Of a stretch of DNA of 64,000 nucleotides, positions 18,526 through 29,935 are shown piece after piece. Each line of letters begins with the position of its first letter. Positions within the stretch are counted from its first letter, which is position 1. The notes beneath the pieces are model-generated. The model saw only the letters and a list, made by a program, of their open reading frames with translations, did no database searches and was not told the DNA's origin. The stretch is from contig NZ_VZRA01000001.1 in assembly GCF_008802355.1 (NCBI RefSeq), positions 1,544,525-1,608,524 on the forward strand. The letters are read 5' to 3'. The DNA is from Oryzomonas sagensis. GTDB taxonomy: Bacteria > Desulfobacterota > Desulfuromonadia > Geobacterales > Pseudopelobacteraceae. Made by a program: the position numbers and the translations under genes.

Positions 18526-19032
18526 TCATTCCTTTTCGAGCACGATCGCCACCATGAACCAATCCTCGTCGGTTGCGAACCGGAGGGTGAGGGTGTCGAG
18601 ATTGTTGCCGGCATTGACATAGTAATCGTCGCCGCTGACCAGCGAAGGAGTTGACAGCTTGATATCGGCGCCGCCCGGTGAGATATGCTGCTTGAAGGAA
18701 CCGGCAATCATGTTGGAGATCTCGCCCAGGGCATCGCGGACATCGTCGTTCAGCTCGGTGACTTCCATGCCGAGCATGCTTGAGGTAAAGGCGAGCGCCA
18801 GCTTCTGGGGGGCATGCAGGCTCACCAGGCCGTTATACACACCGGCAAACCCGACCATTGCCGTAATGCAGTCCTTGAAATGTGTCTCCGGTGCCACCTG
18901 GAGCGGGAGGTGCAGCAGGTTTTCCATGCCCACCATGGTGCAGAACACCTCTTCCACATCACGGATGAGGTGTTTGAGCAGTTCGTCTTCGCTCGTGTGA
19001 AGAGCGTCCAGGAGGTCATTTTTCAGCGGCAT
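18526..19032 (-). CDS. Stand-alone CheX-family phosphatase
   Basis: 168 aa, ATG 6 nt after AAAGGGG. It is a CheX fold with the active-site ExxN in ALGEISNMIAGSFKQ near residues 115-129 and a second conserved stretch FVGFAGVYNGLVSLH-like near 75. CheX/CheC phosphatases remove phosphate from CheY~P. No che genes are adjacent. It is clearly paralogous to the protein at 51804. The gene is separated from the cytochrome operon by a terminator and preceded by a 10-bp inverted repeat in its leader. The receiver it acts on is unknown. Confidence 0.83.
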   Translation of the reverse strand: MPLKNDLLDALHTSEDELLKHLIRDVEEVFCTMVGMENLLHLPLQVAPETHFKDCITAMVGFAGVYNGLVSLHAPQKLALAFTSSMLGMEVTELNDDVRDALGEISNMIAGSFKQHISPGGADIKLSTPSLVSGDDYYVNAGNNLDTLTLRFATDEDWFMVAIVLEKE

Positions 19033-19220: not shown

Positions 19221-19253
19221 AAAAACAGCCTCGCACCGGGAGGGGCGAGGCTG
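19221..19253 (-). terminator. Intrinsic terminator of the cytochrome operon
   Basis: 9-bp stem (CAGCCTCGC / GCGAGGCTG) followed on the - strand by TTTTTAT, 50 bp after the stop of the monoheme cytochrome gene. Confidence 0.85.
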
Positions 19254-19303
19254 TGTGGAACAGATGGACAGCAGCGGGCCAAACGCCACGGTGACCTATA
19301 CCC

Positions 19304-19666
19304 CTACCTCGCGTTCTCGTCAAGCAGGTAATTCAACAGTATGACAACCTCCCTGATCTCTTGTTTGTTCATGTTGGAATTGGGTTTCCGCAGCATCTTG
19401 ATGCCATAGGCTTTTACCGCCTGCCGGTCAAAGGGCTGGCCGGTGATGGGAGCCCTCCCGGTCTGCACGGCAATGACGGTCCGTTCCATGGTGTGGCACT
19501 TGACGCATTTCCGCGACATGAGATCGAACGATGCCCTGTAGTTGGCCGGGATGCTGTCGGGATCGAAATTCATTCTGTCCCCGCGTCCCTTTACCCTGAT
19601 GCGTGCGTCGGCAACCGCGGCAATGACAAGCGTGAAGAGCGTGACCAGTATGATGAGCTTCCGCAT
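19304..19666 (-). CDS. Small periplasmic monoheme c-type cytochrome
   Basis: 120 aa, ATG 6 nt after GGAG. A signal peptide (about 1-21) exports it, and one heme-binding motif CVKCH is at 54-58. The rest is a compact helical domain with a Met in IKMLRKPNSNMN that could be the sixth ligand. It likely carries single electrons in the periplasm. As the last gene of a five-gene operon with a multiheme lipoprotein and a cytochrome-porin fusion, it is a candidate shuttle between the membrane and the outer-membrane component. Confidence 0.85.
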   Translation of the reverse strand: MRKLIILVTLFTLVIAAVADARIRVKGRGDRMNFDPDSIPANYRASFDLMSRKCVKCHTMERTVIAVQTGRAPITGQPFDRQAVKAYGIKMLRKPNSNMNKQEIREVVILLNYLLDENAR

Positions 19667-19711
19667 GTGAGACTCCTTCAGACGAGATTATGGCGGCTAG
19701 TAGAGCAAAAA

Positions 19712-21229
19712 TCAGAAACTGAACGTCACCCCGAGGGTGCCGATCTTGTTGGTTATGTCTTGGGCAGTATCATCCGGCCTTTTTATTGATGATCCGTTAG
19801 AAGGAAACCGGTAAGAAGTTACAATTTCGTGTTTGTACTCAAGGGCTATCTTCACGTTTTGAAGGGGGGCGTAGGCGAGGGTCGGGATAAAACGGCGCAC
19901 CAGGCCGCGCCCGTCATCCTGGTATTCGAACCGCAGGGCACCGATGAGGTTCTGGAGAAAGGTATACTCGCCTTCAACGGCGGCCACGTAGGATTTCAGT
20001 TCGATTGGGGTACTTGACAGGTTCAGGTAAGCATTGTCGTCCTTGCCCAGCACACCGGCCACCCTGAGCCTGAAGAGCTTGTAGAGGATGTCCAGGTCCG
20101 CTCCTGCGCGGTAATAGCTGTTCTGGATGGGGGGGGATACGCCTGTTGGGGTGTTCGGGGTGCCGTTCTTGCCGTAGTAGCCGTAGGCCCCAACGGTGAC
20201 CGTCAGGAAGTCGAAGATGCTCTCCTCCTTGGCCAGATCCACCTCCGGTTCGTTGGCCAGGTAATCCGCCCCGCCGAACTTGTAGGAGATGTGGCCGTAG
20301 CCTTCCTTGGTGTTTTGATCCTTGCGGTTCACCACCCCGGCGGCGACGAAGAAGCGGTTGGCAAGCACGGCGTTGGCCTCCAGTGCGTCCTGGGGCTGTT
20401 CGAGCTTGAATTCCGAAACGCCGACCGTGTAGGCGTAGGGGGCGAAGGAATTGGTCGTGGAGAGCTTGTTGTTGGACTTCCAGAGCCCGAGTTTCGGCTG
20501 CATGCGTCCCACCTTGAAGTTGATGGGGGTATCGAAGGCGTGGCGCCAGATAACGAACAGTTCGTTGATGTCGGTGCCGTTATTGCGCAGGGGGGCACTT
20601 GTCGTAGTATTGTTGTCCCTGAGACCTTCGCTGTAGGCCACATAGGTGGCGAAAAAGGCGGCCTTTTCCCGGAAATTGCCGCCGGCGTTCAGTTTGAGGG
20701 CACGCGTCGAGAGATCGAGCTCGTTGACGGCGTTGTGGTCGTAGGTCGCATGTATCGAGGCGGTGAAGGATATGGGCAGCAGTTCGGGGATGGCCGCCAG
20801 GAGAAGCCCTTCGGGCTTGGCCTCGCCTCCGGGAGCGGTGTCAGGCGCAGTAGCAGCCGCTTCCTGGGCCGGCGCGGGTGCGGACGCCTCTGGGGCCCCC
20901 AGTGCCCCTCCCTTCAATTTGCTCAACTTGTCGGCGTCACCCTCACCCTTCACCTCCATGGTTCCGCCAGCCGGCTTGGCTGTCGCCTTGGGGGTGGGGG
21001 GGGCTTCCTTGGCCTTGGCCGCCTTCTGCCCCTTGCCGAAGTAGACGTACGAGTTTTTAAGGAACGCCTCGCCGTACTCGTTCAATTCGGGGTAGATGGT
21101 ATGGCAGGTGCTGCATTCGACCTTGTAGGCGCGGCTGAATGCAGGGATGGCGTGGGATGAGGCAACCACAATCAGTTGGACAAGACAAGATCCTATAAGG
21201 CACAGAATCAAAGCCGGCTTTCTTGTCAT
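19712..21229 (-). CDS. Fused monoheme cytochrome / outer-membrane beta-barrel (Cyc2-like)
   Basis: 505 aa. A signal peptide ends near residue 27. Immediately after lies a heme motif CSTCH (39-43) within the pattern IPAFSRAYKVECSTCH followed by YPELNEYGEAF, which resembles the N-terminal heme plug of Cyc2-type cytochrome-porin fusions of iron oxidisers. Residues about 70-145 form a long Ala/Pro-rich linker. Residues about 150-505 alternate short amphipathic beta-strands with polar loops and end in Phe (VTFSF), the usual C-terminal signature of outer-membrane barrels. It probably moves electrons across the outer membrane. Direction and substrate are unknown. The neighbours are other cytochromes. 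Confidence 0.8.
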   Translation of the reverse strand: MTRKPALILCLIGSCLVQLIVVASSHAIPAFSRAYKVECSTCHTIYPELNEYGEAFLKNSYVYFGKGQKAAKAKEAPPTPKATAKPAGGTMEVKGEGDADKLSKLKGGALGAPEASAPAPAQEAAATAPDTAPGGEAKPEGLLLAAIPELLPISFTASIHATYDHNAVNELDLSTRALKLNAGGNFREKAAFFATYVAYSEGLRDNNTTTSAPLRNNGTDINELFVIWRHAFDTPINFKVGRMQPKLGLWKSNNKLSTTNSFAPYAYTVGVSEFKLEQPQDALEANAVLANRFFVAAGVVNRKDQNTKEGYGHISYKFGGADYLANEPEVDLAKEESIFDFLTVTVGAYGYYGKNGTPNTPTGVSPPIQNSYYRAGADLDILYKLFRLRVAGVLGKDDNAYLNLSSTPIELKSYVAAVEGEYTFLQNLIGALRFEYQDDGRGLVRRFIPTLAYAPLQNVKIALEYKHEIVTSYRFPSNGSSIKRPDDTAQDITNKIGTLGVTFSF

Positions 21230-21269
21230 GGTGGTGTCTTCCTCCTGTAATTTGATTAAATTCAGATCG

Positions 21270-23123
21270 TTACCAGCGGTAGCACATCCCTGAACTACTG
21301 TCGTAGTTTTTGCAGAGGAAGTTCAAGGCCTGCTCGGTATTGTAGGGGCCCGAGTAGGTTAATCCGCTGCCGGTAAGCGGCAATGTCGGCATGGTGGCCG
21401 TGTGGATGGCCGTATAGACGGTGCCGGGGTTCGCACCGGCGGTAAAATTCTGATTGTTATTCACCAGCCAGTCGATCGAGTCATAGATGAGCTGTTTGGA
21501 ATAGATCGGATTGTGGGTGTATCCGGCCGGATCGTTGAAGAAAAGGCTGTAGTTGAAGTAGGCGCCCATGGTGTAGGCTCCGGCGCGGATTTTGCTGGTG
21601 CCGGAGGCCGCCACGGTGTAATTGCCGAATTTCTTCCAGTTGTTGTTGGGGGATAGCCCGCTGCCGTTAATGCCGTAACTCTTCAACAGGGCATTGAGCA
21701 CCAGCACCGCTGCGCGGTAGCTGTCACGTTCGGCATTCATGAATGCTGCCGTGCGCGGTCTCGGGTCCGCTACCGTGGAGCCTGCATAGTGGCATTTACT
21801 GCATACTTGTTGCTCACTCGGCATGTCTTTGATGGAATCGCTGACGGTACCGGTATTCCCCCAACTTGCCGCCAAGACGTAGTGGGGACGGTCATTGGTC
21901 ATGTGGCAGACGATGCAGGCGCCCTTTGACGCCATGTTCAGAGCGGCACCGACATTTTTGTGGGTTGGGTTGACCGCGTACATGGAGTCGGCGAAAAACT
22001 GGAAGCCGCTCCTTCCCTGAAGGTTGGCCCCGGAGGCGAAATCGTGCGGTGAGATGCCTCCCGGGTTGGAGCCGTTATAGTCAAACAAGCCGAGTTTGTC
22101 GGCGGTCTTGATCATCTCCCCGACTTCGCGTCCTGCGTGACACGGCATGCATACGTTTGAATTGCCGAGCGAGTCGTACTGAATATTCAACGCGGCCCGG
22201 ATCAGGGGGGCGCCTGCGGGGTGGGACGAGTACATGTACCAGATCGAAGCTGCCGGTACACTGCGCAGCCTACCGCTGTAGGCGCTGCCATCGTTGGACC
22301 TGCCGTCGCTGTGGCAGGTGTCGCAGGCGGCAGTAGGCTCGCGGGTGGTGTCCTGATAGGTGGCACGGGCGTTTGCGGGATAATCGTTTCGCACGCCGTC
22401 CAGGTCCGGCAGTGCGTGTACATTCGTGAAGCCCGATGATACGAAATTGATGAAACCGGTGGAGGTATGGCAACGAACGCAGAAGTTGCCGTAGTTGGCA
22501 CTCGCCGTTAGTGCGCTCCCGCGTGTTTTGAAGTCGGTGGTACTGGGAAGGGCCGTGCCACCCATGGCGGAGCGTGACCACTGCTGAAGCATGGTCTTGG
22601 CAGTGGTGGTGTCGTGGGGATTATGGCATTTACGGCAGTAGTGCTTGTAATTGGTTGCAACGTAGACGGCTCGCCTGCCGGTGCTGAAGTGGATGAATTT
22701 CGTATCCCGGGCGACTGCATCGTAGACGGTAGTATTGAATACCCCGTTAGATTTGGCGTGGCACTTGTCGCACTTGCCGTCGGTATCCGGGTTCCTGCTG
22801 ACGTGGTTCGCGCTGCCCGGCGTACCGCTCGGCGTACCGCCATGGCATCGGCTGCAACTGTTGGGGTGTCCCGCCTCGGGCTCGTGGCAATCGGCGCAAC
22901 CGGCGGCGTTGGAGGTGTTGTGGACCGAAAGTTGCCATTCCTCGGCGATATTCTTGCCGGTGCCGGGACTGACGGCGTTTTGATGGCAATTGTTGTTGAA
23001 ACAGGCTTCCGACTGGGCCAGCTTTGTGCTGCCGCCGGCCGTAACCGTTTTTTCGCCGCAACCGGCCAAGGCCAGCAGGAACGCTGCCAGAAGCAATGAT
23101 GCAGCGATAATTCTTGAGACCAT
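21270..23123 (-). CDS. Multiheme c-type cytochrome lipoprotein (9 CXXCH plus one CX4CH)
   Basis: 617 aa. The ATG at 23123 follows AGGAGGATC and starts a lipoprotein signal with the lipobox LALAGC (C22). Nine CXXCH motifs lie at 76, 90, 118, 163, 215, 267, 325, 403 and 441, preceded by an atypical CFNNNCH (CX4CH) at 41-47. The last 170 residues have no heme motif. Such lipoproteins of Geobacter sit on the periplasmic or outer face of the outer membrane and relay electrons outward. It lies 40 bp before the cytochrome-porin gene and its start region overlaps no other gene. A tenth heme at the CX4CH site is possible but unproven. Confidence 0.88.
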   Translation of the reverse strand: MVSRIIAASLLLAAFLLALAGCGEKTVTAGGSTKLAQSEACFNNNCHQNAVSPGTGKNIAEEWQLSVHNTSNAAGCADCHEPEAGHPNSCSRCHGGTPSGTPGSANHVSRNPDTDGKCDKCHAKSNGVFNTTVYDAVARDTKFIHFSTGRRAVYVATNYKHYCRKCHNPHDTTTAKTMLQQWSRSAMGGTALPSTTDFKTRGSALTASANYGNFCVRCHTSTGFINFVSSGFTNVHALPDLDGVRNDYPANARATYQDTTREPTAACDTCHSDGRSNDGSAYSGRLRSVPAASIWYMYSSHPAGAPLIRAALNIQYDSLGNSNVCMPCHAGREVGEMIKTADKLGLFDYNGSNPGGISPHDFASGANLQGRSGFQFFADSMYAVNPTHKNVGAALNMASKGACIVCHMTNDRPHYVLAASWGNTGTVSDSIKDMPSEQQVCSKCHYAGSTVADPRPRTAAFMNAERDSYRAAVLVLNALLKSYGINGSGLSPNNNWKKFGNYTVAASGTSKIRAGAYTMGAYFNYSLFFNDPAGYTHNPIYSKQLIYDSIDWLVNNNQNFTAGANPGTVYTAIHTATMPTLPLTGSGLTYSGPYNTEQALNFLCKNYDSSSGMCYRW

Positions 23124-23173
23124 GTGTGATCCTCCTGAAAAAATGCGCAACATGCCTTTCAACGGCTGTCCGG

Positions 23174-23923
23174 CTATCTCAGCAAACGGTAGATATAGAT
23201 GAACGTCCCTCCGACGGAAAGGCTGGACAGGAAGCCGGCATACTTGTTGACGAGGGCCGAGATCTGCACCCGGTCGGCAAATTTGTCGATATCCGACACC
23301 TCGTCGGTCATGACGGCGATAATGTCCTGCCAGTCCTTGTCCCACTGGAAGATTTGCAGATAGAGCTCCGAGCCCCTCCAGAGGAAAATCAGGAAGAAAA
23401 CAATGCCAAAGGCTATGAACCCCTTTGAAATGGGGGAGTCTTTGATGGCGACATAGATCTTGCGGATCAGTTCCAGGTTCATGATCGAGAGAAACACCCA
23501 GATGGCGTTCTCGACGATTTTAAAGTTCCTGATGGTATTGGGGCTGGGGGTCGGATTGACGAACAGGAAGAGGCCGCCTGCGACCAGGATGAGCAGCGAG
23601 AAAAGATAGACGGTAACCTTCTTGCCTGAAATCTCGAAGGTGCGGCAAAAAACATAGTACTCCAGAAAGCCATGGGTGATTACGACAATCGCCACGGTCC
23701 CGACAATATTGTGGAACGCGGAAAGTTTGTAATAGTGGACCCAGGGATTAATGGCATACGCCTGCCCGAGGAAGATGAGAAAGAAACCGATGGAAATGCT
23801 GGTCCACACGCGGGCGTTGCCGATACTGAAGTAAAAGCTTATGGCACCGGCCAAGCCCCAGAAGATCGTCCTGATAAGCTCAAAGGTGTTGACCTGGGAG
23901 AGCAACTCAATGAATTGTTCCAT
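23174..23923 (-). CDS. Seven-helix integral membrane protein of the cytochrome operon
   Basis: 249 aa with about seven hydrophobic segments (near 15-35, 38-58, 70-90, 103-122, 133-160, 167-191 and 229-247). I recognise no family with confidence. His residues are few (63, 71, 84) and all lie around the second and third helices, so a b-type diheme bundle is not evident. Position between a DUF4388-like gene (31 bp) and the multiheme lipoprotein (50 bp) suggests an inner-membrane part or sensor of the electron-transfer system, but this is inference from context only. Confidence 0.72.
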   Translation of the reverse strand: MEQFIELLSQVNTFELIRTIFWGLAGAISFYFSIGNARVWTSISIGFFLIFLGQAYAINPWVHYYKLSAFHNIVGTVAIVVITHGFLEYYVFCRTFEISGKKVTVYLFSLLILVAGGLFLFVNPTPSPNTIRNFKIVENAIWVFLSIMNLELIRKIYVAIKDSPISKGFIAFGIVFFLIFLWRGSELYLQIFQWDKDWQDIIAVMTDEVSDIDKFADRVQISALVNKYAGFLSSLSVGGTFIYIYRLLR

Positions 23924-23954
23924 TATTAGCCTCCGATTGCGCTATAAAAAGTGT

Positions 23955-24920
23955 TCAATGTCCTGATTTTGCCGCGGTGATGATTCTGGAAAGTTGTTCC
24001 ATCATTACTTTAAGGCTGGTTGCGCTGATGAGCAGCTTTGCCGAACGCTCGACGCCGGCGAGGAATTGCACCACATTGGTCTCGTCGAGCAGACAGCTGT
24101 TGCCGCCCTGGTCATTCAGCTCTTTATCGACGATACCCCGCCCGACCCTGCCGACCGATTCGACGACAATGGCCTTTACCCGATCTTCCAGTTCCTCGAG
24201 TTTCCCGGCAATGTTCTTTCTCTCCCGCTCTTCGCGCGCCGTATTGATTTTATTGATCTCGGATTGCTGAAGCGCAACGGCGGTTTCCCAGATGTTCTGT
24301 ATGTTGATTATCTCCAGCAGGTTCAACCCCATCAGGTGCTCAACCCCCTGAGTCGTAAAAAGGTCGATCTTGGCGCCGGGCAGCCCGGCGATCTTCTGGG
24401 ATTCGCTGGATGATGTCTCGATATCCTGGGAACCGTCATGGAAAAATCCCAGGGGAGCGCCGTCCTTGTAGAAGATTATGGTTGAACGCTCATCGGTGTA
24501 AATCCGCAGGCAGCCACTCATCCTGTCGGAACCGATTTTTTCCAGAAGGGCCTTGATGTCGACCAGTTTCAGTTCCTGTGCCTTGTAGAGAATCTCGCCC
24601 TGGAGCAGGGCATGGATACATCTGGTGAGGTCTTTGGAAAGCTTGTAGACGTTGAGGGTGCCGCCGCTGGTGCCGACCATCAGGTGGCACAGGGCCGTCA
24701 AGGCCTCAAGGCCGGTTTGCCGGCTGCCGTTTTCTTCTTCGTGCAGCGCACTGACTACTTTACCTGCCTCAAACACCAGGATGACAGTCGATTTCTGAAA
24801 AACAAAGCTGGCATATCCGGTGAAAGTGCCGGTGCTCAGCTTTGCCAGGATTTCCGGCAGCTTCAGCGTGCCGACTGCCAGATTCTCAAAAAGAGGGTTG
24901 CCTTTCGGAAGAAGGAACAT
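23955..24920 (-). CDS. DUF4388-like two-repeat protein with C-terminal coiled coil
   Basis: 321 aa, ATG after GGAGATAGTT. Two copies of a beta-rich module are visible: TFTGYASFVFQKSTVILVFEAG at about 33-54 and MSGCLRIYTDERSTIIFYKDG at about 134-154. The pattern of inducing effect, then a conserved GxxV/L strand, resembles DUF4388 / PATAN-like modules used in bacterial signalling. Residues about 225-260 are charged helix, likely coiled coil. No signal peptide or catalytic motif is seen. As the first gene of the cytochrome operon it may be a cytoplasmic regulatory or scaffolding partner; the function is unknown. Confidence 0.65.
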   Translation of the reverse strand: MFLLPKGNPLFENLAVGTLKLPEILAKLSTGTFTGYASFVFQKSTVILVFEAGKVVSALHEEENGSRQTGLEALTALCHLMVGTSGGTLNVYKLSKDLTRCIHALLQGEILYKAQELKLVDIKALLEKIGSDRMSGCLRIYTDERSTIIFYKDGAPLGFFHDGSQDIETSSSESQKIAGLPGAKIDLFTTQGVEHLMGLNLLEIINIQNIWETAVALQQSEINKINTAREERERKNIAGKLEELEDRVKAIVVESVGRVGRGIVDKELNDQGGNSCLLDETNVVQFLAGVERSAKLLISATSLKVMMEQLSRIITAAKSGH

Positions 24921-25155: not shown

Positions 25156-25725
25156 CTACGGCTTCAGCCTGTCCAGCGCCAGATTCAGCATGAGCACATT
25201 CACCCGGGGTTCCCCCAAAAAGCCCATTTGGCGGCCTTCGACACTCCGGGACAGGAGCGCGGCCACCGCTCCCTCGTCCAAGCGGCGGGCCGTGGCGATT
25301 CGGGGAATCTGGAGCCGCGCGGCGGCCGGCGTAATGTGGGGATCGAGCCCGCTGGCCGAAGCCAGCGCCAAGTCGGCGGGAATCGGGCCGGTCACCCCCG
25401 TCGTGCGCAACGACGCCACCCGGTCCCCGACCGTTTTGATGAAGTCGGGGTTGGTCGGCCCGGCATTGGAACCGCCCGATGCCATGGGGTTGTAAGCGAA
25501 ATCGGTGGTGGCCGAAGGACGCGGCCAGAAGTACTGCGGAGCGGAGAAGGGCTGCCCGATCAGGGCGGAGCCGGCCTCCTTGCCGTCTGCGCCGGTTATG
25601 AAGCTCCCCGCGGCCTGCCGGGGGAAGACGGCAGAGGCAACTCCGGTAACGACGGCCGGATAGGCGCCGCCGCAGATGATGGTGAATACGAGGAACATAA
25701 GGATTGCCGAGCGCAGGTCGTTCAT
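25156..25725 (-). CDS. kdpC: Potassium-transporting ATPase subunit KdpC
   Basis: 189 aa, ATG after AGGAG. One N-terminal membrane helix (about 7-28, with the family block CGGAYPAVVTG) anchors a periplasmic domain containing FWPRPSATTDFAYN and the C-terminal VNVLMLNLALD block typical of KdpC. KdpC stabilises the KdpFABC high-affinity K+ pump. It is the last gene of the kdpA-kdpB-kdpC operon, 24 bp after kdpB, and is followed by a terminator. Confidence 0.97.
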   Translation of the reverse strand: MNDLRSAILMFLVFTIICGGAYPAVVTGVASAVFPRQAAGSFITGADGKEAGSALIGQPFSAPQYFWPRPSATTDFAYNPMASGGSNAGPTNPDFIKTVGDRVASLRTTGVTGPIPADLALASASGLDPHITPAAARLQIPRIATARRLDEGAVAALLSRSVEGRQMGFLGEPRVNVLMLNLALDRLKP

Positions 25726-25749
25726 GTCGTTCTCTCCTGTGAGTAAGTG

Positions 25750-27819
25750 TTACGCCAACAGCCCCACCACCAGATCGATGGCCTTGATGCCGACAAAGGG
25801 GGCAATGATGCCTCCAACCCCATAGATGAGCAGGTTATGGATCAGGAGCCTTTCGGCGGGCATGGGGCGGAACCTGGTTCCCTTCAGGGCCAGCGGCACC
25901 AGCATCGGGATGATGATGGCGTTGAAGATCACCGCCGACAGGATGGCGCTGTAGGGGCTGGCCAGATGCATCACGTTGAGCACCCCCAGTTGGGGATAGA
26001 TGGAGAGCAGCGCCGCCGGGATGATGGCGAAGTATTTGGCGATGTCGTTGGAGATGCTGAAGGTGGTCAGGTTGCCGCGGGTCATGAGGATCTGTTTGCC
26101 CACCTCGACGATGTCCAGCAATTTCGTGGGGTTGCTGTCCAGGTCGATGATGTTGGCCGCCTCACGGGCCGGTTGGGTCCCGGTGTTCATGGCCACGGCC
26201 ACGTCGGCCTGGGCCAGCGCCGGGGCGTCGTTGGTGCCGTCGCCGGTCATGGCTACCATGAACCCCTGCTCCTGATACTCCCGGATCAGCCGCAGTTTGT
26301 CCTCGGGCTTGGCCTGGGCCAGGAAATCGTCCACCTGGGCCTCGGCGGCAATGGCGGCGGCGGTGAGCGGATTGTCGCCGGTGATCATGACGGTCTTGAT
26401 CCCCATGCTGCGCAGTTGCAGGAAGCGCTCCTGGATGCCTCCCTTGACGATGTCTTTCAGGTTGACCACGCCGAAGATCTCCTCATTGCGGCTGACCACC
26501 AGCGGGGTCGCGCCGCCGCGGGCGATCCGGTCCACGGTCTCGCCCAGGTCGCCGGGCACGGACGTGGCTCCCAGGCTTCTGACGAAAGCCACCGCCGAGT
26601 CGGCGGCGCCCTTGCGGTACTGTATGCCGTCGGCGTTGATCCCCGAAAGGCGGGTGTCGGCGCTGAAAACGATGGCCTCGGACCCTGCGGGCGGCGCATC
26701 CCTGGTGAAACCGTACTTTTGCCGGACAAGGGCCACGATGCTGCGCCCTTCCGGGGTCTCGTCGCTCAGCGATGCCATGAGCGCCGCCTCGGCCACCTCC
26801 TGCTCGCTGTGGCCCCCCAGTGGGACACAGGCCACCGCCTCCCGGTTGCCGAGGGTGATGGTGCCGGTCTTGTCCAGGAGCAGCACATTTACGTCGCCGG
26901 CCGCCTCGATGGCCCGCCCCGACAGGGCGATGACATTTTTCTGGAAGAGGCGGTCCATGCCGGCGATGCCGATGGCCGGCAGGAGCGCCGCGATGGTGGT
27001 AGGGGCCAGGCAGACGAAGAGCGCCACCAGGATGGTCAGCGAAACCGGCGTTCCGTGGCCGGCCGCCTTGACGCTGTAGATGGAGAGCGGGCTCATGTTG
27101 GCGCAGACCAGCAGGAACACCAGGGTCAAGGCGATCAGCAAGACCTCCAGGGCAATCTCGTTGGGGGTCTTGCGCCGCTTTGCGCCCTCGATCAGGCAGA
27201 TCATGCGGTCCAGGAAGGTTTCGCCCGGATTGGCGGTGATCCGCACGATGATGGCGTTGGCGATGACCGTGGTGCCGCCGGTGACGGCGCTGCGGTCGCC
27301 GCCCGACTCCCGGATCACCGGGGCGGATTCGCCGGTGACGGCCGATTCGTTCACCAGCGCTGCGCCGGCCACCACGTCGCCATCGCCGGCGATCATGTCG
27401 TTCGCCTCCACCAGGATGTAATCACCCTTGCGGAGTTGGCTGGCGGCCACGGCCGTCGAGGTGCCGCCGAATTCGGGCCCGGCAAGGAGCTTGGCCGTTA
27501 TGTCGGTCCGCGCCTTGCGCAGGGAGGCGGCCCGCGCCTTGCCGCGCCCTTCGGCCAGGGCCTCGGCATAGGTCGAGAAGATCACCGTCAACCAGAGCCA
27601 CACCGACACGGCGCCGGTGAACCAGGCCGGTTCCCTGTTGCTGCCGGTGAGCGACATGACAAAGGTGATCAGGGTTATGGCGCTGGCGATCTCCACGCAG
27701 AGCATGACCGGATTGCGCCACAGGGAGCGGGGATCGAGTTTTTTCAGGGAGTCGGCCAGGGCTCCCCCTATGAGTTCTCTATCGAAAGCCGATTGGGGTT
27801 GTTGTGTGTGCTTCGCCAT
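25750..27819 (-). CDS. kdpB: Potassium-transporting P-type ATPase subunit KdpB
   Basis: 689 aa, the normal family length. It is a P-type ATPase: actuator loop TGES at 162-165, phosphorylation motif DKTGT with Asp316, later [10 protein letters not shown] and a hinge motif [12 protein letters not shown]. KdpB hydrolyses ATP and drives K+ uptake through KdpA. It lies 7 bp after kdpA. No kdpD or kdpE gene is in the window, so regulation of the operon cannot be judged here. Confidence 0.97.
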
Positions 27820-27826
27820 GGCCTCG

Positions 27827-29608
27827 TTACCTCCCCGGCATGGTCAGATGTTCGACGATGGGCCCCATGGCCAGGGCCGGAAAGAAGGTCAACGCCCCCA
27901 CAATCAGGATGACCAGCGACAGCCAGAGGGCGAAGGGCACCTTGTCGGTCGGCAGGGTGCCCAGGCTGGGAGGGATATACTTCTTCTCCGCCAGGGAGCC
28001 GGCCATGGCCAGCACGGCGATGGCCGGGACGTAGCGTCCCGCAATCATGGCCAGGGAGCCGGCCAGGTTGTAGAAATTGACGTTGGCGTTCAGCCCGGCA
28101 AATGCGCTGCCGTTGTTGTTGGCCATGGAGGCAAAGGCATAGATCACCTCGGAGAGGCCGTGGGCGCCGGGGTTGGCCATGGAGGCCACGGCCGCCGGGA
28201 CGAGGAAAGCGATGCCCGAGAGGACGAGGACCATGATCCCGGCCGTCAGGATAGTGATGATCGACATCCACATCTCCCGCACTTCGATCTTCTTGCCCAG
28301 ATATTCGGGCGTCCGGCCGATCATCAAGCCGGACACGAAGACCGCAATGACGGCAAAGGCCAGCATGGTGTAGAGTCCGGAACCGACCCCGCCAAAGACG
28401 ATCTCGCCCAAGAGGATCAGGCCCAGGGGCACCATGCCCCCCATGGGGGTGAGGGAGTCGTGCATGGCCGCGACGGCGCCGCAGGAGGTGCCGGTGGCGG
28501 CCACCTCGAACAGGCTGGTGCCCGCCAGGCCGAAGCGCACCTCCTTGCCCTCAAGGTTGGCCCCCTGGACGCCGAGGTTTGCCACGAGCGGGTTCCCGCT
28601 GCTCTCCACGCCCTGCAGGACCCCGAAGGAGATGATCAGGAGCGCCAGCATCACCCCCAGGAGCGTCCACCCTTGTCGGGTATTGCCCACCATGACGCCG
28701 AAGGTGTAGGTGAGGGCGCCGGGGATCAGCAGGATCAGGAGGATCTCCACGTAATGGGAGAGGGGGGTCGGATTTTCAAAGGGGTGGGCCGAGTTGGCGT
28801 TGAAGAAACCGCCGCCGTTGGTCCCCAACTCCTTGATGACCTCCTGGGAGGCCACCGGTCCCATGGGGATGGTGACCTCCTTCGCCGTTACGCTCTCGGT
28901 GACCGTATTGCCCTTGGCATCCTTGAGCGGGTTTCCCTTGTCGTCCAGCTTTGGCTTGTCGTAGGTCACCGCCTGTAGGAGCGGTACGGTCCGGTAGGCG
29001 GAGAAGTTCTGGATCACCCCCTGGGAGACCAGGAAGATGGCGCCGAGCAGCGACAAGGGGAGCAGGATGTAGAGGGTGCCGCGAGTCATATCGACCCAGA
29101 AGTTGCCCAGCAAGGAGGTCCTGCGCCGGGCAAAGCCGCGGATCAGGGCGATCACGACGGCCATGCCGGTGGCGGCGGAGACGAAGTTGTGCACCGTCAG
29201 CCCGACCATCTGGGTAAAGTAGCTGGCTGCCGACTCGCCGCTGTAGGCCTGCCAGTTGGTGTTGGTGACGAAGCTTACGGCGGTGTTGAGCGCCAACTGC
29301 CAGGTAAAGGCGGGGAATTTCTGCGGGTTGAGGGGCAGCAGCTGCTGCGTCAGCAGCATGACGAAGAGCGCCGCGAAGAGTACCAGGTTGAAGAGGACCA
29401 TGGCCCCGGCGTAGCGCCGCCAATCCATCTCCTCGTCCTTCTTTACCCCGCAGATGCGGTACAGCAGGTTTTCGCAGGGAGCGAGGAGGGGCGACAGGAA
29501 GGTTCGCTCCCCTTGGTAAACGTGTGCCATGAAACTGCCCAGGGGCTTGATGAGCGCCAGGAGGACGATAAAGAAGCAGATGATTTGCAGCCAATCATAG
29601 GATTTCAT
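27827..29608 (-). CDS. kdpA: Potassium-transporting ATPase subunit KdpA
   Basis: 593 aa, slightly longer than the usual 557. The ATG at 29608 follows GGAGAAACC and begins the first membrane helix; the frame stays open upstream without family similarity. About ten membrane helices and selectivity-loop regions are visible, for example [14 protein letters not shown] near residue 115 and [19 protein letters not shown] near 270. KdpA is the ion-selecting channel-like subunit. No separate kdpF was found upstream. Confidence 0.96.
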
Positions 29609-29935
29609 GACGGTTTCTCCGCTGTGTGAGTATCGGGCTGTGCGACTGTCACGTTTTGTGGAAAGTGTACCATGTATCCGGCTCCTTTTCTGGCGGGCCA
29701 CCTTGGGCGTGCTGTATCCTTCACCGTTACGATAGGACGTAACGGGTAAAGAGGGTGTGAAAATGCGGGGGGAAAGCGTCAAGAAAAGGTCAATGCCACT
29801 GATGGGGACGTTAACGGTATGTACCGGCAGGGAGTTGCATAAATAGTGGGGGACGAAATAGAAAGAGGGTCGGCACCGACGTGCTAACCCTCTCTCAAGG
29901 TTGGGGTATGGGCCATCGGGCCGGCTCTCCGCCCG
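29609..29935. other. Intergenic region upstream of kdpA
   Basis: 327 bp without a convincing gene. It holds an 8-bp palindrome (CCGTTACG / CGTAACGG, arms at 29724-29731 and 29738-29745), which could be an operator for kdp, and the terminator of the sulfur cluster at 29864. I could not pick a clear promoter or a c-di-AMP riboswitch core. Confidence 0.5.
29864..29893 (-). terminator. Terminator after larE
   Basis: Outer 7-bp stem (AGAGGGT / ACCCTCT) enclosing a second small stem (GTCGG / CCGAC), followed on the - strand by TTTCTATTTC, 43 bp after the larE stop. Confidence 0.7.

Follow-up and report, generated by a model that had tools for sequence, protein, structure and literature searches.

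A Cyc2-like cytochrome-porin fusion conserved with a decaheme lipoprotein and a small cytochrome c in Oryzomonas sagensis and the Geobacter group

In the genome of Oryzomonas sagensis (GCF_008802355.1), a window of 64,000 nucleotides was analyzed (contig NZ_VZRA01000001.1, positions 1,544,525 to 1,608,524; the coordinates below count from its first letter), and a conserved unit of three genes, here called the trio, was found on its minus strand. These genes encode a barrel protein (19712-21229, 505 amino acids, aa), a decaheme lipoprotein (21270-23123, 617 aa), and a small monoheme cytochrome c (19304-19666, 120 aa). The barrel protein joins a monoheme cytochrome to a porin for which modeling predicts about 16 strands, and its sequence makes it a divergent relative of Cyc2. 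We propose, tentatively and just short of calling it probable, that the trio is an outer-membrane redox unit whose pore heme exchanges electrons with dissolved species and to which the decaheme adds a further redox site.

Conservation of the trio

The full trio was recovered in one locus in 50 of the 56 named barrel loci by two methods, with variable gene order and strand. The barrel and decaheme genes are at most 1.6 kb apart in all 50, and the barrel and small cytochrome genes at most 2 kb, with one gene lying between barrel and decaheme in L140. The three genes are co-directional in the relatives of Oryzomonas, the decaheme gene is divergent in Geomonas, Geotalea, and their relatives, and other orders are found in L146 and L156. 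Five of the six incomplete loci (L112, L122, L132, L138, and L142) are cut at a contig end. The nearest named relative of the window, Oryzomonas japonica Red96 (L101), has 98% identity in the decaheme, 86-90% in the barrel, and 99% in the small cytochrome.

Within the order, 112 genomes were compared, and the matches extend over the barrel in 63 of them, this number being the 69 with any match minus six in which only the heme region was matched (G118, G050, G046, G070, G077, and G111). The small cytochrome, counted from matches with E up to 1e-10, is present in 62 of these 63 genomes (G123 is the sole exception) versus 13 of the 49 others, as raw counts in which kinship is ignored. In a sample of 394 genomes from the phylum, the barrel was found at E < 1e-60 in seven genomes outside the order. 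A small cytochrome gene accompanies it in all seven loci, adjoining the barrel gene in four of them, and a decaheme gene in three. The barrel and the small cytochrome seem to form a wider pair, which the decaheme joins in the Geobacter group and in some others.

Across all six reading frames of the window, CXXCH was found in only five stop-to-stop segments longer than 80 aa, and the trio genes hold 11 of the 13 motifs of such segments, so this clustering of hemes is not due to chance.

Architecture of the barrel protein

The first 70 residues of the barrel protein comprise a hydrophobic leader (hydrophobic segment at residues 6-24) followed by AIPAFSRAYKVECSTCHTIYPELNEYGEAF. Three parts were delimited beyond the leader, all on the minus strand: a cytochrome domain (residues 27-62, AIPAFSRAYKVECSTCHTIYPEL..., 21044-21151) with its CXXCH at 21101-21115; a linker rich in Ala, Gly, Lys, and Pro, placed by model and alignment (residues 63-147, 20789-21043); and an OprO/OprP-like barrel ending in Phe, placed by model and profile (residues 148-505, 19715-20788). 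Within the family, which was represented by 49 sequences with the window included, one CXXCH is kept in every member, the Ala/Lys/Gly/Pro-rich linker between heme domain and barrel varies from 25 to 99 residues, and the last residue is Phe in 42 sequences, Leu in 6, and Met in 1. The records are labeled Geobacter, Geomonas, Geotalea, Citrifermentans, Oryzomonas, Geobacteraceae, Desulfuromonadales, and Deltaproteobacteria, among others, and are what we refer to as the Geobacter group.

An AlphaFold2 model was built on the 49 sequences (mean predicted local distance difference test, pLDDT, of 72.5). Its strands span residues 153-504 and number 16 if the pair at 266-275 is considered a loop hairpin, or 17 or more by raw count. 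In a second-look fold alignment, OprP was the top match (2o4v; Z 26.6, root-mean-square deviation, rmsd, 3.6, 308 residues aligned) and OprO was also recovered (4rjw; Z 26.5, rmsd 4.6, 314 residues aligned), while Foldseek alone ranks other general porins (OmpT and PorB) first. The family sequence profile also places OprO first (E 0.0039), and Porin_O_P from Pfam matches 14 of the 49 sequences. Residues 22-49 have pLDDT below 50, and the placing of the heme domain relative to the barrel is not given by the model. The 16-strand barrel that an initial annotation of this DNA, made from the sequence alone, expected from structure prediction of 19712-21229 was obtained in approximate form, with OprP and OprO as best matches; the heme, which it expected inside the barrel, has no firm position in the model, given the low pLDDT of this part and the long variable linker.

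Variants of this gene were observed in some loci. It is split by frame breaks in L063 (7906-9398) and L065 (5248-6758, the same gene as in L151), with the rest of the operon kept, and proteins of about 247 aa with the same CXXCH region and no barrel-sized C-terminal part are encoded in L091 (6280-7023) and L092 (5854-6594). Periplasmic binding proteins of the PBP_like_2 type adjoin the trio in L119 (5168-5932 and 9790-10548), L126 (9762-10520), and L156 (4929-5678, by tblastn only), and deserve mention beside a porin of the OprO/OprP type.

Relation to Cyc2

The signature of Cyc2 consists of AXPXFAR[Q/K][T/Y] upstream of CXXCH and PXL just downstream, and OprO and OprP are named as its structural homologues (PMC8406198). 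The barrel protein shares with Acidithiobacillus Cyc2, Mariprofundus Cyc2PV-1, and Leptospirillum Cyt572 an N-terminal hydrophobic segment, a single N-terminal CXXCH with PXL three residues past it, a homologous heme domain, and a porin of the OprO/OprP type, with about 16 strands, at the C-terminal end. With 505 aa, it exceeds the minimum of 365 aa expected for a Cyc2 that ends in a 16-strand porin. PXL is present downstream of CXXCH in all 49 family sequences. The exact upstream motif was found in none of them and a relaxed form in 48; the window has AIPAFSRAY, and in the family the FAR[Q/K][T/Y] part is usually replaced by FSR or FTR plus A, Q, or E.

As a stand-in for Cyc2, we used a set of nine Cyc2-motif proteins, a comparison made without any characterized Cyc2 sequence. 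These proteins are labeled Burkholderiaceae, Melioribacter, Bacteroidetes, Bacteroidia, Chlorobiota, Proteobacteria, and Gamma- and Betaproteobacteria. The motif region is separated from CXXCH by three residues in 49 of 49 family sequences and in eight of the nine proteins of this set. Against the set, the profile of the barrel family reached a probability of 99.5% at full length, 99.6% (E 5.4e-24) with only the heme domains compared, and 60% (E 8.5e-5) with only the barrels; two reversed controls gave 0.1%. In a midpoint-rooted tree of 38 sequences with several weak nodes, the nine proteins are separate from a clade formed by the Geobacter group and its relatives outside the order. Two sequences from another order of the class (L204 and L205) carry an exact upstream motif, AIPAFARQY, but have lost PXL.

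Since the exact signature is absent from all 49 sequences, we call the barrel protein a divergent Cyc2 relative and not a member by strict motif. Its family differs from Cyc2 in the altered FAR[Q/K][T/Y] part, a longer linker, and a conserved decaheme partner, and from the nine stand-in proteins in forming a separate clade. The fusion of a Cyc2-like cytochrome with a porin, as claimed in the initial annotation, is supported by the heme-domain match and the OprP/OprO-like model. The profile comparison with Cyc2 that it suggested, made here against the stand-in set, came out positive for the heme domain and weak for the barrels alone.

Genes called cyc2 had already been reported in Geobacter: FeGenie assigns a cyc2 of cluster 3 to G. 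sulfurreducens and to G. bemidjiensis, and by its account G. metallireducens also has a cyc2 gene (PMC7005843). The initial annotation, in stating that the Geobacter conduits known to date are built of separate porin and multiheme subunits, overlooked these reports. In genome G089, which we take to be G. bemidjiensis Bem, the Cyc2-motif profile matches a single protein, the trio barrel, so the cluster 3 cyc2 of this species is probably the same protein. The account of cluster 3 cyc2 in the relevant part of PMC7005843 gives no partners, operon, or structure. A different situation was observed in G118, from the same family, where a protein much closer to the Cyc2-motif set (L180/L214, C139:8630-10012, E 1.7e-159) occurs with no trio barrel; its gene adds another kind of Cyc2-like gene to the order, perhaps through acquisition.

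The decaheme lipoprotein and the small cytochrome

The decaheme lipoprotein has nine CXXCH sites and one CX4CH site. Its start was taken as the ATG at 23123, which is followed by a lipobox LAGC recognized by eye; a longer frame beginning with GTG at 23345 overlaps with the preceding gene. The family analysis covers 39 sequences: the window's own and those of 38 loci, retained out of 53 because their start and lipobox could be read, with 15 loci omitted. All ten heme sites are invariant in the 39 sequences, as is the lipobox Cys in these rows pre-selected for a readable lipobox.

Profile and model comparisons suggest that this protein resembles surface reductases of the OcwA/MtrC type. OcwA of Thermincola potens comes out as its best solved relative twice: by profile (6i5b, whole-sequence E 2.6e-9) and by a second-look fold alignment of a model with pLDDT 71.5 (Z 10.8, rmsd 4.1, 236 residues). 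OcwA is described as a terminal reductase at the cell surface that acts on soluble as well as insoluble substrates (PMC6703420). Unlike OcwA, which has nine heme sites, the window protein has ten, and it is a predicted Gram-negative lipoprotein. MtrC/MtrF domain II/IV from Pfam was detected in 27 of the 39 sequences. Octaheme nitrite reductases and NrfA are matched by the decaheme profile too, more weakly than OcwA, and a nitrite reductase was rejected because of this weaker match and because all ten sites end in CH and not in CK.

A decaheme paralogue of 626 aa is encoded in the same genome by the third gene of a cluster, after a heme-less 419-aa putative porin and a 232-aa octaheme. The putative porin was recognized by eye and had no sequence match in Pfam or PDB. 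A porin followed by a periplasmic multiheme and an outer-surface multiheme is the usual layout of three-part conduits, and the porin-cytochrome conduits of Geobacter include the OmbB-OmaB-OmcB and Ext types. The trio also encodes a predicted outer-membrane barrel with a multiheme lipoprotein, and the decaheme has its paralogue in a conduit-like cluster. In contrast to the heme-less conduit porins, however, the trio barrel itself carries a heme (CXXCH in 49 of 49), and the window operon has no separate periplasmic multiheme gene. Elsewhere in the genome (L190, 2389-7812; C1:554388-559811), a multiheme protein of 1807 aa contains two more copies of the decaheme module in tandem.

The small cytochrome has one CXXCH, as does the barrel protein, besides an N-terminal hydrophobic segment and nearly invariant Met residues at positions 91 and 99. 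A PDB profile search with it gave a best E of 0.51. In five of the seven loci outside the order its heme site is CX4CH (L208 and L209) or CX6CH (L206, L207, and L210), with Met 99 replaced.

The operon and its surroundings

In the window, the trio belongs to a series of five consecutive genes on the minus strand (19304-24920) with intergenic gaps of 31, 50, 40, and 45 nucleotides. The decaheme and the two one-heme proteins are its only heme-bearing products. The first gene encodes a DUF4388 protein (23955-24920, 321 aa; 29.1 bits in Pfam against a cut-off of 25), with a domain of the PATAN type, and the second a membrane protein with about seven hydrophobic segments (23174-23923, 249 aa), obtained by merging by hand 11 overlapping hydrophobic windows found with a lenient threshold. 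The membrane protein belongs to no known family; in Pfam it had no convincing match, with four families each hit in one of 16 relatives (best E 0.01). From 16 sequences, H84 is invariant and H71, 13 residues apart, nearly so, with no third conserved His, and a quinol-oxidizing cytochrome b was rejected on these grounds.

By Pfam and synteny, these two genes travel together as a module separable from the cytochrome genes: they occur without cytochromes in L079, L083, L088, L089, and L090, and are joined to the trio only in the co-directional group of Oryzomonas relatives. The complete inner-to-outer-membrane path that had been claimed for the operon is therefore unsupported, as this module stands apart in five loci and the membrane protein has neither a family nor a heme-ligand His pattern. 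Where all five genes occur together (17 loci), median identity with the window copies is 35% for the decaheme, 57% for the barrel, 68% for the small cytochrome, 69% for the DUF4388 protein, and 73% for the membrane protein. The decaheme is the fastest-diverging of the five, which fits the poorer conservation reported for cytochromes of nanowires and porin-cytochrome systems (PMC12977616).

All five open reading frames of the initial annotation are present on the minus strand at the positions it gave, and its DUF4388-like protein, multiheme lipoprotein, and small monoheme cytochrome c hold up. The same is true for its single terminator, a hairpin on the minus strand at 19225-19254 (-22 kcal/mol, z -6.2, none of 200 shuffles equally stable) followed by a T run, which a simple terminator scan of the region did not list among its sites. 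A single promoter was also claimed, and this is not confirmed: sigma-70 sites are at chance level (5 in the region versus 3.6 expected), and a sigma-54 promoter was rejected since no sigma-54-like site with up to two mismatches occurs upstream of the operon. The terminator separates the operon from a CheX-type gene (18526-19032, minus strand), which was not counted in it and adjoins it only where the locus comes from the same genus. Upstream of the operon, the translations read by eye seemingly correspond to Kdp potassium-transport genes (25156-29782, same strand).

Proposed function and alternatives

One heme alone cannot span the outer membrane. A pore of 16 strands is also narrow for a decaheme, the known wires having 26 (PMC8406198). 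For these reasons, we apply to the trio the logic argued for Cyc2 in the same source, in which dissolved Fe must enter the pore. Through an OprO/OprP-type porin, a dissolved redox compound, with chelated Fe(III) as the likeliest candidate, would reach the single heme, which would sit in the pore or at its periplasmic mouth. This heme would exchange electrons with the small periplasmic cytochrome c and the periplasmic cytochrome pool, and in the Geobacter group the decaheme would provide the outer membrane with an additional, terminal site of redox exchange. The hosts are iron reducers; Fe(III) chelated with NTA, EDTA, citrate, or pyrophosphate is used by species of Oryzomonas (PMC7285026). Gene content, the barrel fold model, heme-domain homology, and co-occurrence were computed; we infer the location of the heme and of the decaheme, the substrate, and the direction of flow.

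Several results weigh against this redox unit. Substrate and direction of electron flow are guesses. The window's own barrel reaches no Pfam family, and the similarity of the barrels alone to the Cyc2-motif set is weak; moreover, this set came from a pattern scan that included the heme region, which biases it toward a good heme-domain match, and the exact published motif is present in only five of its nine members. The OcwA match of the decaheme is the sum of weak stretches (best single E 0.0033), Foldseek gives only E 0.24 for the same pair, and the window's own decaheme falls below the MtrC/MtrF domain II/IV model. Regarding co-occurrence, in the 3.6 kb of L118 the barrel and the small cytochrome are present, a different gene lies upstream, and the decaheme is missing, although a second contig of the same isolate (L109) carries the full trio. 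In three of the seven loci outside the order, the small cytochrome gene lies past the decaheme and not next to the barrel, and in L206-L210 its sequence suggests that heme attachment may be unusual or the heme lost. Neither partner was seen in the surroundings of five weaker family matches, four from the phylum sample (L211-L213 and L215) and one from the order (L214); the phylum sample contains ten more weak matches beyond these.

A second explanation, that of the initial annotation and one which we consider unlikely, is a wire across the outer membrane, in which electrons would pass from the small cytochrome c to a heme plugging the barrel and on to the surface decaheme, the fused barrel replacing the pair of porin and periplasmic multiheme. 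The conduit-like position of the decaheme paralogue, third after a putative porin and an octaheme, is in line with it, as are the distance of at most 1.6 kb between barrel and decaheme genes in every trio locus and the absence of both in L073, L074, L075, and L077 (genomes G012, G042, G031, and G009, with no barrel match). However, besides the limits of a single heme and of 16 strands given above, the heme domain is attached by a long variable linker, and no decaheme occurs in four of the seven barrel loci outside the order or upstream in L118.

A true Cyc2 function appears less likely still. Here dissolved Fe(II) would be oxidized at the pore heme and electrons would flow inward, for example in growth dependent on nitrate or trace oxygen. 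The domain layout is Cyc2-like, the exact upstream motif exists in L204 and L205, and the authors of FeGenie suggest iron oxidation in Geobacter from cyc2 (PMC7005843). Nevertheless, that motif is absent from all 49 family sequences, including the window, the two sequences that have it lost PXL, and in the tree a long branch leads to the Cyc2-motif set, which forms its own clade. As for physiology, the Oryzomonas described to date reduce iron, and nitrate is of no use to two of the three species (PMC7285026).

Improbable among the alternatives is a sensing unit, in which the trio would report the extracellular redox state to chemotaxis or surface-behavior proteins and not carry respiratory flux: the DUF4388 and CheX neighbors in the window and a methyl-accepting chemotaxis protein (MCP) gene 5 nucleotides after the small cytochrome in L145 point to it, but CheX lies past the terminator and only in loci of the same genus, and the MCP neighbor looks ancestral, since an MCP is paired with trpA in L184-L187, where the trio is absent (L185 is from the window's genome; the matches cover only the later part of the MCP). 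A chemotaxis link based on the adjacent MCP was rejected for this reason, and sensing is retained as a minor alternative for L146 and L156, in which 818-aa proteins match only the signaling part of the L145 MCP.

Implications

No account of the trio was found in the open PMC literature searched, with supplements and subscription journals outside the search. The presence of cyc2 genes in Geobacter was known from FeGenie (PMC7005843), and what appears new is the conserved partnership of the trio. Beyond the redox unit proposed above, it is conceivable, though rather doubtful, that the trio represents a new conduit architecture, with a Cyc2-type porin, a surface decaheme, and a small cytochrome c, in which iron-oxidation machinery is placed in iron reducers, possibly working in both directions, and has been kept over much of Geobacterales and beyond.

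The cyc2-like genes serve as a marker of iron oxidation in FeGenie, and here, across the iron reducers of the Geobacter group, a relative of Cyc2 is the conserved partner of a decaheme of the surface-reductase type. If dissolved Fe(III) is what the trio reduces, the cyc2 marker misleads in this group; if it oxidizes Fe(II), many of the so-called iron reducers may do both. In either case, the fixed partner genes make electron transfer by a single-heme porin directly testable in cultivable organisms.

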